NCBI GenBank assembly: GCA_028287395.1
Contig: JAQBPR010000098.1
Span: forward strand, 1-36,466
DNA from: Bacilli bacterium
Lineage (GTDB): Bacteria; Bacillota; Bacilli; Paenibacillales; NBRC-103111
Reading direction: 5' to 3'
Length of the DNA: 36,466 nt
This document shows positions 12,811 through 21,120 of this stretch, in pieces. How positions within the stretch are numbered: position 1 is the first letter of the stretch; each line of letters begins with the position of its first letter. Under the pieces are notes generated by a model that searched no databases, had not been told where the DNA came from, and saw only the letters and a program-made list of their open reading frames with translations. The position numbers and the translations under genes were made by a program.

Positions 12811-13081
12811 GAAAAAAGACCTCTCGCCGCAAGGGACGAGAGATCGTGGTACCACCCTAATTCGCTTTCCGCAGAAAGCCTTAAAATTCCGTTAACGAGG
12901 AACAGCCGTTCCGCTTACTTCCATTCACCGAAACAACATCGGAAATCGGTTCAGCATTATGCTCCGGGACCCATTCAGTCAACCCGCCACACCGATTCGC
13001 ACCTGCCATCGGTTCTCTGAAAGAAGCGCATGCTAACCTACTTGTTCCCTTCCATGCATTTGGTTCATTTAGTTTAAAGTT
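12811..13081 (-). ncRNA. T-box riboswitch leader of trpS
   Basis: On the minus strand the conserved T-box AGGGTGGTACCACG lies at 12858-12845. It is followed by a terminator stem (CTCTCG/CGAGAG) and a T run ending at 12811. Upstream is the Stem I region with an AGTA-type bulge (CAAGTAGG) and the GGTGCGAATCGG distal element. A TGG codon at 12973-12971, within GAATGGG on the 3' side of Stem I, is the likely specifier and matches tRNA-Trp. Uncharged tRNA would favour the antiterminator and read-through into trpS. Exact Stem I boundaries were not folded. Confidence 0.92.
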
Positions 13082-16295: not shown

Positions 16296-16700
16296 TACTC
16301 GCTCCTTCTAAGTTACTGTCTTGAGTACTAATCGCTGTAGCATCATTTTGTATGATTATAACGATCATTTTCCAAAAGGGAAAGCAGCATATCTGTTGTA
16401 ACTGTAATATCTCACTTTCCAGTTTAAAAGAATACACTTTGCCAAGCAAGCCATTTTTCACCAAAATGGTCACTTCGTGCGCGAATCCCGAAACATTTAT
16501 ATTAGCCGAAGCTAGAATATGTCGAAGAATCGCTTTAAGAAAAGCCGTAATTTTCTTAGCAAAGTTTGTCGAAACATCTCGAAACCGTATAATATGCCTA
16601 GTCCCATAGTCTCAAAAAAAAATAGTCAAATTATTTATCTTATGATAAGATTAGGTAAATTCGAATGGATATCCATTTCATTGTATTTACAAACTTTATA
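16296..16700. other. Intergenic stretch without a supported gene
   Basis: About 400 bases between the ROK kinase start and the c-di-GMP riboswitch. Open frames here lack ribosome binding sites and recognisable protein features. A TATAAT on the minus strand near 16357-16352 may be the -10 of the ROK-manA operon, without a clear -35. The promoter of the riboswitch RNA must lie near its right end, but no convincing element was identified. Only the 7-1-7 palindrome at 16637 stands out. Confidence 0.5.
16637..16651. repeat. Perfect 7-1-7 palindrome upstream of the riboswitch
   Basis: ATCTTATGATAAGAT is a perfect 15-bp palindrome with a single central base, lying about 60 nt upstream of the c-di-GMP aptamer. 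It could be an operator for a dimeric repressor. It is not a good Fur box. Confidence 0.35.
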
Positions 16701-16710
16701 TGAATCGATA

Positions 16711-16788
16711 AAGGCACACCCATTGAAAAATGGCGTCGCAAAACTATAGGGGCTTAAGTGTTTTACACTATGCCAGCCAGTAAACCGA
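16711..16788 (+). ncRNA. Cyclic-di-GMP-I (GEMM) riboswitch aptamer
   Basis: The segment shows the GEMM-I architecture in order. First comes AAGGCACACC. Next is a stem capped by a GAAA tetraloop (CCATT-GAAA-AATGG, 16719-16732). The conserved core CGTCGCAAAACTATAGGGG follows, then CTTAAG and a short stem (GTGTTTTACAC). The terminal TGCCAGCCAG and ACCG close it. This matches the c-di-GMP-I family (RF01051) in layout and in the CGCAAA and GCCAG elements. A terminator follows 12 nt later, so it most likely controls read-through into the MreB-like gene. Whether ligand turns expression on or off, and c-di-GMP versus cGAMP preference, cannot be settled by eye. Confidence 0.85.
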
Positions 16789-16800
16789 AATTTCGAAGAA

Positions 16801-16826
16801 AACCTCCGAAATCGGAGGTTTTTTTC
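16801..16826 (+). terminator. Riboswitch expression-platform terminator
   Basis: AACCTCCG / CGGAGGTT stem (16801-16808 and 16813-16820), AAAT loop, then TTTTT. ATTTCG at 16790-16795 can pair with CGAAAT at 16807-16812, offering a simple competing antiterminator adjoining the aptamer's 3' strand. The pairing is inferred and not folded. Confidence 0.8.
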
Positions 16827-16877
16827 GTTTAAGGGTAAATAACAAGCGAAAAATGGCTATAGCGAGGAGAATGTATA

Positions 16878-17873
16878 ATGTTATACAGAGATATTGGCAT
16901 TGATTTAGGTACGGATAATATACTGATTTACATTCGTAAACAAGGCATTGTTTTAAACGAACCCGCCGTCGTAGCCATAGATAGTATAACTAAAGAACTG
17001 CTCGCCGTAGGAGAAGAGGCCTACCGTATGATCGGTCGTACCCCTAAAAACATATTAGCTATTCGACCGTTGCGCGATGGCGTCATCGCAGATTTTGAAT
17101 TTACTGCAGCCATGTTGAAACACTTCCTCAAAAAAATAGGTGCATCCCATTTTTTTTATTCACAACGCATACTTGTATGCTGCGGAGCGAAAAGCACCTC
17201 TTTAGAGAAACAATCCATCAAAGATGTTACTATCCATGCTGGGGGAAAGCAAATTGTTCTAGTGGAAAAGATCAAAGCCGCTGCCATCGGAGCAGGAGTA
17301 AATATGTGCCTGCCTTTCGGGAGCATGGTAGTGGATATTGGCAGTGGAACGACGGATATTGCTGTTTTATCTATGGGGAGCATTGTTACTTCATCTTCCA
17401 TTACAACGGCTGGAAATCAATTTGATCGTTATATTGAACGGTATATGAAAGAAACTTATAATCTTTTAATCGGAGAATCAACCGCAGAAAAAATCAAACT
17501 TAATATAGTTGTGTTTCCTCATCCAAACCAAGCTGTCCTGGAAATACGGGGGAGAGATCTAATGACGGGTTTACCCCGTACTGTACTTATTGAACCGCAG
17601 GAGCTTACACCCGTTATAGTTGAATGGACTCATGCAATTGTGCAAGCTTGCAAAGCCGCATTGGAGCAAACCCCCCCAGAATTATCAGGAGATATTCTGA
17701 GTAAAGGGATCACAATTACAGGGGGAGGGGCATTATTGCACGGGTTAGATCAAATATTAGCGAAGGAACTGCAGGTGCCTGTAACTATGGCCGAAAGACC
17801 ATTGTACAGTGTCGTGTACGGAATGAAACAGATGTTGGAAAGCAAAACTATGTGGAAAAGGAGGAAAAACTAA
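16878..17873 (+). CDS. MreB/Mbl-family actin homologue under riboswitch control
   Basis: Bacterial actin of the MreB family, normally forming membrane-associated filaments that guide elongation of the cell wall. The 331-residue product keeps the nucleotide-binding motifs DIGIDLGTDNILIYI (phosphate 1), VVDIGSGTTDIAVLS (phosphate 2) and ITGGGALLHGLDQIL (adenosine), plus NEPAVVAID and AVGEEAYRMIGRTP near the N-terminus. Length is normal. No mreC, mreD or mbl neighbours are present, so it is probably an accessory paralogue and not the housekeeping mreB. GAGGAG lies 8 nt before the ATG. It follows the c-di-GMP riboswitch and precedes a zinc-ribbon gene by 4 nt. Confidence 0.92.
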   Translation: MLYRDIGIDLGTDNILIYIRKQGIVLNEPAVVAIDSITKELLAVGEEAYRMIGRTPKNILAIRPLRDGVIADFEFTAAMLKHFLKKIGASHFFYSQRILVCCGAKSTSLEKQSIKDVTIHAGGKQIVLVEKIKAAAIGAGVNMCLPFGSMVVDIGSGTTDIAVLSMGSIVTSSSITTAGNQFDRYIERYMKETYNLLIGESTAEKIKLNIVVFPHPNQAVLEIRGRDLMTGLPRTVLIEPQELTPVIVEWTHAIVQACKAALEQTPPELSGDILSKGITITGGGALLHGLDQILAKELQVPVTMAERPLYSVVYGMKQMLESKTMWKRRKN

Positions 17874-17877
17874 ACTC

Positions 17878-18348
17878 ATGAGATCAACTAAACAATTACA
17901 ATATTCTAAAGAAAGTCTTGAATATTTAGTTTTTATATCCGGTGTTAAGGGGGCATGTATTGTTCGAGATTTAAGACAACACTACCAAGTTATAGATTCG
18001 CGAATTTGTCCGACCTGTCCGATATGCAGCAGTAATCTTCGTTATATTGTTCTTTGGGGAGATCAGAACGGTTATTGTCAAATATGTGGTTATAACTCGT
18101 TAGAAGCCACAAAAGAAATAGAAGAGGTGTGTACCTCAATAAGTGCAACTGACTTAATTATCAGACAAAAATATGTCATAACCGATCTGTTTGGCGCAAC
18201 ATTTACTTTAAGTTTCATGAAATACATCAACACTCCATCGGGTACAATCTTGTTTTTTGAAAATAAAAAAGAACCCCTTGTTTCGGAATTTATTCAGATG
18301 AGTTTAACAGAAATTAAAGCGATCAAACCACAATCCCACAACATATAG
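17878..18348 (+). CDS. Unrecognised zinc-ribbon protein, operon partner of the MreB-like gene
   Basis: A 156-residue protein I do not recognise. Residues about 44-75 hold a Cys-rich knuckle pair, CPTCPIC and later CQICGY, typical of a structural zinc ribbon. The rest looks like a mixed alpha/beta domain (DLFGATFTLSFMKYINTPSGTILFFENK). No membrane segment or signal peptide. AAGGAGG lies 11-12 nt before the ATG, at the far end of useful spacing. It begins 4 nt after the MreB-like stop, so it should share the riboswitch-controlled transcript and may act with the actin homologue. That functional link is inference. Confidence 0.75.
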   Translation: MRSTKQLQYSKESLEYLVFISGVKGACIVRDLRQHYQVIDSRICPTCPICSSNLRYIVLWGDQNGYCQICGYNSLEATKEIEEVCTSISATDLIIRQKYVITDLFGATFTLSFMKYINTPSGTILFFENKKEPLVSEFIQMSLTEIKAIKPQSHNI

Positions 18349-20769: not shown

Positions 20770-20994
20770 TTAGCTGCGAAAAGTGATATATTGTTCTTTA
20801 TTTAATTCTAGAATTTTGCCGAGAGGTATGCCTGTTTTTTGCGCTACTTCCCACACAGTGCTGCTTGGATGCGCACGTAAATAATTACGCACTTGAAAAA
20901 AACGGTGATCCCGTAAACTTTGACATTCGGCACAATAGTCCGTTTGACTGCGAAGAACAAGCTTTCCACATTCTTTGCAATTCATTAAAGTCAT
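20770..20994 (-). CDS. Small zinc-ribbon protein, YvyF/TIGR03826-like
   Basis: A 74-residue protein with an N-terminal zinc ribbon (CKECGKL then CAECQSL) and a C-terminal helix-turn-helix-like segment (TVWEVAQKTGIPLGKILEL). This matches the flagellar-region YvyF/TIGR03826 family, whose role is not settled. In many Bacillota such genes sit near flagellar or competence loci; here the next gene is a methyl-accepting protein on the other strand. The ATG at 20994 has GGGAG 8-9 nt upstream. An ATG three codons downstream is also possible. Confidence 0.65.
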   Translation of the reverse strand: MTLMNCKECGKLVLRSQTDYCAECQSLRDHRFFQVRNYLRAHPSSTVWEVAQKTGIPLGKILELNKEQYITFRS

Positions 20995-21120
20995 CGCAAT
21001 CACTCCCTTGGATTATCGTAAAAGCATTCGTATAAGCCGCCAATTATCAGGGGGTATTTTCCTAATTAAAATTATAATTCAACAAATTTTATTCATCTAG
21101 GGTAGTGAGTACTAATTCCA

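Follow-up and report, generated by a model that had tools for sequence, protein, structure and literature searches.

A class I cyclic di-GMP riboswitch lies ahead of an MreB-family gene with an altered nucleotide pocket and a zinc-ribbon gene in a Paenibacillales genome

Among described systems, the closest RNA counterpart of the locus reported here is Cd1, the class I cyclic di-GMP (c-di-GMP) riboswitch of the flagellar genes of C. difficile, for which transient antiterminators that refold into the terminator have been reported (PMC9262584). The nearest printed idea is CmrRST of the same bacterium: this locus, with a c-di-GMP riboswitch upstream, acts on the length and chaining of cells by way of response regulators, MrpAB and division proteins rather than by controlling an actin gene itself (PMC12694794). 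On the protein side, slow phosphate release was measured together with polymerization for Spiroplasma MreB3, and stable filaments were proposed (PMC9597168), and the filaments of the dominant-negative pocket mutant D158A of B. subtilis MreB are fewer, wider and less dynamic (PMC11279060). Here we describe a locus in a 36,466-nucleotide (nt) stretch of DNA, hereafter the window, which is one entire contig (JAQBPR010000098.1) of the 4.56-Mb, 89% complete assembly of a Bacilli bacterium from the order Paenibacillales (GCA_028287395.1). A c-di-GMP-I riboswitch with an adjoining terminator is followed there by a gene for an Mbl-type actin, in which lysine occupies the place of the catalytic glutamate, and by a gene for a zinc-ribbon protein.

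An initial annotation, made from the letters of the window, had recognized a full GEMM-I layout, an adjacent terminator, and an MreB-family gene separated by 4 nt from the gene of a zinc-ribbon protein, all of which is borne out. The Rfam model RF01051 matches positions 16703..16788 of the forward strand from end to end (model positions 1-87) with 58.0 bits (E 5.5e-9), 23 bits over the gathering score of 35, the previously proposed start at 16711 being 8 nt late. The GAAA loop and the CGCAAA segment of the aptamer are retained, GGCACA stands at the consensus GGCAAA, and the outermost P2 pair is broken, as by eye it also is in one other leader of the genome (L021). The first G of the AAAGGCA segment is kept, and its column is presumably that of G20, the position deciding for c-di-GMP. 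A G20A change in the c-di-GMP-I aptamer leads to binding of cyclic GMP-AMP (cGAMP; PMC6274999). We consider it probable that the riboswitch is a c-di-GMP sensor.

The intrinsic terminator is a hairpin with a U-run at 16796..16825 (+), 52 nt ahead of the actin gene. Its stability of -16.7 kcal/mol was reached by none of 200 shuffles (z -4.65), and the fold of the complete leader has a z-score of -4.79. A simple pattern scan for terminators missed this hairpin, probably because the U-run is paired within the stem. The minimum-energy fold at full length contains the closed aptamer and the terminator together, with no bases in common, and ligand binding alone would thus not block the terminator; an antiterminator is needed. 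A candidate, predicted with weak support, is a hairpin of nine pairs at 16785..16815 (+), in which the CCGA at the 3' end of the aptamer (16785-16788) pairs with 16812-16815 and the segment 16791-16795 with 16807-16811. Twelve of the 17 leaders in the genome could be used to compare such pairing with that to shuffled terminators (no terminator was found for four, and L019 has only a weak one), and the 3' end of the aptamer pairs better with the genuine terminator (combined p 0.003; 0.006 without the near-copy). In L010, moreover, CCA in the aptamer faces UGG in the terminator, against CCG and CGG in most leaders, which is the pattern expected of a compensatory change (by eye). For the window itself, one of two further controls, with the linker shuffled, favors the pairing (p 0.024), and the other does not (p 1.0).

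The layout would be that of Cd1: a class I aptamer, a downstream terminator compatible with it, and an antiterminator, here a predicted one, drawn from the 3' strand of the aptamer, in the same order of strands. Cd1 is a transcriptional OFF switch (PMC9262584), which is also what the window leader is predicted to be, and OFF is in our judgment somewhat the likelier direction. The two leaders differ in their targets, flagellar genes in one and an actin gene in the other, and the window leader has a predicted antiterminator that is favored only transiently and an extra nucleotide beside the conserved CC.

The first gene behind the leader is an open reading frame (ORF) of 331 amino acids (aa) at 16878..17873 (+), which scores 416.1 bits against Pfam MreB_Mbl (cut-off 27) and 372.6 against NCBIfam TIGR00904 (cut-off 365.75), and remains below the curated MreBH cut-off (NF010540, 367.9 against 515). 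Its predicted structure is the MreB actin fold. Within its own genome it is 54% identical to mbl (contig C57), 49% to mreB (C167) and 45% to a fourth member of the family (C156). The names mbl and mreB rest on the tree and on neighboring ORFs judged by eye, SpoIIID-like and flagellar-hook-like ones adjoining the former and mreC/mreD-like ones lying behind the latter. Among 5.8 billion proteins, the closest relatives are five metagenomic sequences with 63-64% identity and one fragment with 64%, whereas the next-closest proteins, at 60% identity or less, are canonical at the pocket sites altered in this group. A maximum-likelihood tree of 48 rows unites the window actin and its five full-length relatives in one clade (support 100/100) with a long stem of 0.94, which falls on the Mbl side (100/97), while the mreB and C156 products of the genome fall on the other side of the midpoint root.

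The nucleotide pocket of this clade is altered. The alignment of 211 rows comprises 7 clade rows and 203 others, the second copy of the window being left out, and no usable row came from loci L005, L031 and L072; the 203 comparison rows, 192 of them distinct, were gathered by similarity to the window and therefore lean toward Mbl. In solved MreBs, the residue aligned with K131 is the glutamate of the DEP/EEP motif, which in Caulobacter MreB is E140 (matched through the residue numbers of the chain) and positions the attacking water (PMC4051119). This column holds K in all seven clade rows and E in all 203 others. Three further sites in or beside the pocket, occupied by D13, I132 and S156 in the window actin, have changed as well: D replaces the P-loop alanine in 6/6 clade rows (A in 201/203 others), I or V replaces the proline of EEP in 7/7 (P in 202/203), and S, K or R replaces the third glycine of GGGTT in 7/7 (G in 203/203). 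N180 was not counted as specific to the clade, N also occurring in 19 of the 203 other rows. Outside the clade, 137 positions are at least 95% conserved; one or more clade rows retain the residue at 120 of these, and at the other 17 every clade row differs. The clade thus shares fold, length and most conserved positions with the Mbl and MreB proteins of Bacillota (Geobacillus MreB, 7zpt; integrative Mbl models, 9a51 and 9a5t), and departs from them in the catalytic Glu to Lys, P-loop Ala to Asp and third Gly to Ser, Lys or Arg exchanges.

Changes at one small set of sites shared by seven sequences, with the others preserved, are improbable for a paralogue under decay, and the pattern fits a specialized, slow or dead ATPase. 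A motif of the form E...T-X-[D/E] is present in 95.8% of the MreB-family proteins of non-Spiroplasma species (PMC9597168); in the window actin, K131 stands in place of the E. Spiroplasma MreB3 is likewise a natural MreB paralogue with an altered catalytic motif. It has exchanged Glu for Asp, Thr for Lys and Asp/Glu for Ser/Thr (PMC9597168), whereas the window actin has exchanged Glu for Lys, keeps Thr and Asp, and has a riboswitch ahead of it. A strongly reduced ATPase activity is a probable property of the protein.

The second gene, at 17878..18348 (+), begins 4 nt past the stop of the actin gene behind a GGAGG, and by eye both genes have a plausible ribosome-binding site. It encodes 156 aa with two CxxC pairs (C47-x2-C50 and C67-x2-C70) and has no Pfam or NCBIfam match up to an E-value of 0.1. 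The search of 5.8 billion proteins returned the protein itself and a relative with 87% identity on an 11-kb metagenomic contig. A profile built from these two rows found matches in five genomes when 398 of the class were searched: the genome of the window, two with convincing short relatives (E 1.5e-14 and 1.6e-8; 41% and 34% BLAST identity over the N-terminal half), and two with weak rows (E 1.1e-4 and 8.1e-4), which were rejected as relatives since by eye they lie in unrelated ORFs. Convincing relatives thus number three in all. Both cysteine pairs are invariant in the four aligned sequences, as are 21 columns altogether. The two relatives with readable DNA are ORFs of 72-80 aa directly 3' of a stand-alone EAL ORF (PF00563, 154 and 170 bits), at L094:1334-2274 and L095:3101-4007, on contigs that carry TubZ and PemK-like genes or topoisomerase and nuclease genes and are apparently plasmid-borne. 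No Rfam match was found in these two neighborhoods. Among the 11 genomes of the family of one genome, G453, only G453 matched the zinc-ribbon profile, and further profile searches of 392 genomes of the order containing the window genome revealed no other carrier bar a scrap of 21 residues. A YolD domain in the C-terminal half was considered and then rejected, BLASTP having returned nothing. In PHROGs, the actin matches actin-like families or families of unknown function and the zinc-ribbon protein matches nothing.

Taken together, we tentatively favor a Cd1-like OFF switch over a predicted non-hydrolyzing Mbl paralogue and a zinc-ribbon protein, which would alter the filaments of the normal Mbl or MreB. 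Without c-di-GMP, the 3' CCGA of the aptamer would pair with part of the terminator, and both genes would be transcribed; with c-di-GMP bound, the aptamer would keep this strand, the terminator would form, and transcription would end, as in Cd1. The actin would then bind nucleotide and polymerize, hardly splitting ATP, into stable filaments, alone or mixed with normal Mbl and MreB, and such filaments would slow or relocate the machinery of wall synthesis. The zinc-ribbon protein may be a partner from the same signaling world, two of its relatives being encoded beside genes with c-di-GMP phosphodiesterase domains. The net effect would be that a fall in c-di-GMP adds a low-turnover actin and alters cell shape or wall growth. 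A bolder version appears rather doubtful: there, falling c-di-GMP would free, directly through RNA, an ATPase-dead Mbl, a pseudo-actin that selection maintains in a clade of its own and that would enter or cap Mbl/MreB filaments and so freeze wall growth; a zinc-ribbon protein from mobile c-di-GMP phosphodiesterase modules would be released with it, and the Spo0A boxes at the candidate promoter would tie the switch to the entry into sporulation or biofilm formation.

The initial annotation had suggested a dedicated actin paralogue linking c-di-GMP to cell shape or wall synthesis. The paralogue stands; with its pocket rebuilt, the link would run via a predicted non-hydrolyzing Mbl and not via one more normal MreB. 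It had also stated that no c-di-GMP riboswitch on an actin gene is well described, with which our searches agree. In the literature on c-di-GMP riboswitches with MreB, Mbl or MreBH, on c-di-GMP with MreB and cell shape, and on c-di-GMP riboswitches in Paenibacillus, a scope that takes in few subscription papers and not the first published list of GEMM-associated genes, we recognized no such case, nor is there one in passages of PMC12694794, PMC6143707, PMC6200980 and PMC7266159. If the favored reading is true, the locus would tie a second messenger to cell shape in a new way, RNA connecting c-di-GMP directly and in one step to an actin that guides wall synthesis, whereas CmrRST reaches cell form through response regulators (PMC12694794). 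A natural Mbl without the catalytic glutamate, kept by evolution, would in that case also allow the role of ATP hydrolysis by the MreB family to be asked in walled cells.

Several observations weigh against the reading of the locus as an OFF switch over a non-hydrolyzing Mbl. The window aptamer has the weakest RF01051 score of the 17 in the genome and is alone among them in having an extra nucleotide ahead of the conserved CC, so that ligand binding may be weakened; we read it as functional, possibly weaker, and see here the chief doubt on the RNA side. Its antiterminator is the best fold only at ends 16815-16817 among the transcript ends tested, and loses by ~12 kcal/mol at full transcript length. 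Taken by itself, the window leader does not stand out from its shuffled terminators (p 0.36), and a dinucleotide shuffle of the strand gives p 1.0 for the duplex. The low score, the extra nucleotide and the broken P2 pair would also suit a leader copied from another riboswitch that has decayed or does not respond, or else an ON switch, with no negative control of the actin by c-di-GMP, and the class I riboswitch Bc1 appeared locked OFF in vivo (PMC11218506). The closest leader, which lies ahead of a response-regulator gene and is 83% identical over 90 nt, nevertheless differs from the window leader by a compensatory change in P2 (C-G for U-A, by eye), the score is still well over the cut-off, and the terminator is intact. 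We hold a decayed copy or an ON switch to be unlikely.

On the protein side, T158 and D160, the further residues of the E...T-X-[D/E] motif, persist in all seven clade rows, and some ATPase activity may therefore remain. This residual motif, together with the MreB_Mbl score and a TIGR00904 score over the cut-off, would also suit an ordinary extra actin of the elongasome, similar to Mbl or MreBH, with a slow but real ATPase and a riboswitch that merely tunes its dose. It is usual in this family for a genome to have more than one MreB-family gene, matches (distant ones included) numbering 2-6 in each of 104 genomes. Such an ordinary actin is an improbable explanation in view of the Glu to Lys exchange in 7/7 clade rows, the three additional pocket sites that are fixed or nearly fixed elsewhere, and the mbl, mreB and fourth member that the genome already has. 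Beyond the two components, the pairing of riboswitch and actin comes from one genome alone, the metagenomic relatives of the actin being known as proteins only. The two EAL neighborhoods are alike in kind and may be one inherited module and not independent cases, and the AlphaFold2 model of the zinc-ribbon protein, built from 2 sequences, has a pLDDT (predicted local distance difference test) of 36.

The distribution of the pair is narrow. The initial annotation had proposed a search for the order riboswitch-mreB-zinc-ribbon in other members of the family, where this order was not found: the zinc-ribbon gene occurs in 1/104 family genomes and the actin clade in 1/392 order genomes, in both cases the genome of the window. 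Against the profile of the actin clade, the window gene reaches 647 bits, and the top-scoring gene elsewhere in the 392 genomes reaches 417. In the single congener that was searched (G013), genes from both flanks of the pair are present with 61-86% identity, and between them lie ~10 kb of genes resembling those for sugar transport and use, none of whose ORFs encodes an actin or a zinc-ribbon protein; neither the actin clade nor the zinc-ribbon gene is found in the G013 genome overall. The pair is thus either a recent gain or an old pair widely lost.

The different occupation of this site in the congener, the single genome with the actin clade, and the TubZ or topoisomerase genes on the contigs of the zinc-ribbon relatives could indicate a separate cytomotive or scaffold system that came from a mobile element, with a filament of its own, the zinc-ribbon protein as adaptor, and wall synthesis untouched. 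Against such an origin are the place of the actin on the Mbl side of the tree and the persistence, in one or more clade rows, of 120 of the 137 conserved positions. By eye, no ORF of the window was recognized as a mobile-element gene, and the phage, plasmid and viral collections yielded no relative of the zinc-ribbon protein, nor did viral contigs yield a member of the actin clade. We regard a separate mobile system as unlikely.

The 17 RF01051 matches over the cut-off (loci L006-L022) are found in a genome that also has 16 GGDEF matches, and in the family such leaders are present in 102/104 genomes, with up to 24 per genome. First genes were scanned behind 10 of the other 16 leaders. They encode GTP cyclohydrolase I, FapA (two), a Cu-amine-oxidase-N/MORN protein, a PilZ protein, a nonribosomal peptide synthetase condensation domain, DUF192 (followed, by eye, by a pair of short pilin-like ORFs), a response regulator, an HD_5 protein (HD-GYP-type) and a 97-aa ORF without match. 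These are mostly expected genes, and the actin hence sits in an otherwise mostly ordinary c-di-GMP regulon. In 20 loci with other mbl or mreB genes, which are part of the 38 MreB-family loci from whole genomes (that of the window left out), flanks of up to 1.5 kb contain no Rfam match; elsewhere in the family, where the comparison covers the best-scoring rows, a riboswitch beside such a gene may exist. Two pairs of leaders within the genome are near-identical, L012/L014 and L019/L020, L012 preceding the condensation-domain gene. The aptamer of L015 (contig C218, ahead of one of the FapA genes) has A where the other leaders have G, in the column that presumably decides between c-di-GMP and cGAMP, and this leader may sense another dinucleotide.

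The intergenic region ahead of the aptamer reaches up to 16295, where a divergent ROK gene borders it, and contains a candidate promoter, TTGTCG-16-TATAAT, at 16566..16593 (+). Promoter-like sites are no commoner in the region than in shuffles (6 found against a mean of 6.8), and for this reason it is only a candidate. Its -35 hexamer overlaps a TGTCGAA at 16567-16573, and a second TGTCGAA lies upstream at 16520-16526; two such sites within 250 nt ahead of the aptamer compare with 0.058 expected (from 95 kb of the genome). TGTCGAA is the core of the Spo0A box (PMC3485338), and spore genes are present in the genome. Having been noticed post hoc, these Spo0A-like boxes can serve as a lead only. 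Across the genome, TGTCGAA occurs on either strand within 250 nt upstream of 5/17 leaders (L015, L018, L019, L020 and L022), which together hold 7 sites where ~1 is expected, two of these leaders being near copies.

Elsewhere in the window, a urease-alpha-like gene (546-2279) has antisense to it a match to the Rfam family 5_ureB_sRNA (1814-2113, +, 73 bits), which perhaps reflects mere coding conservation of the urease. A T-box leader (12829-13063, -, 107 bits) precedes a gene similar to that of tryptophanyl-tRNA synthetase. Finally, a short protein encoded at 20770-21003 (-) reaches 50 bits against half of the flagellar-region family YvyF (cut-off 124), and would be a short or cut-down member of that family.
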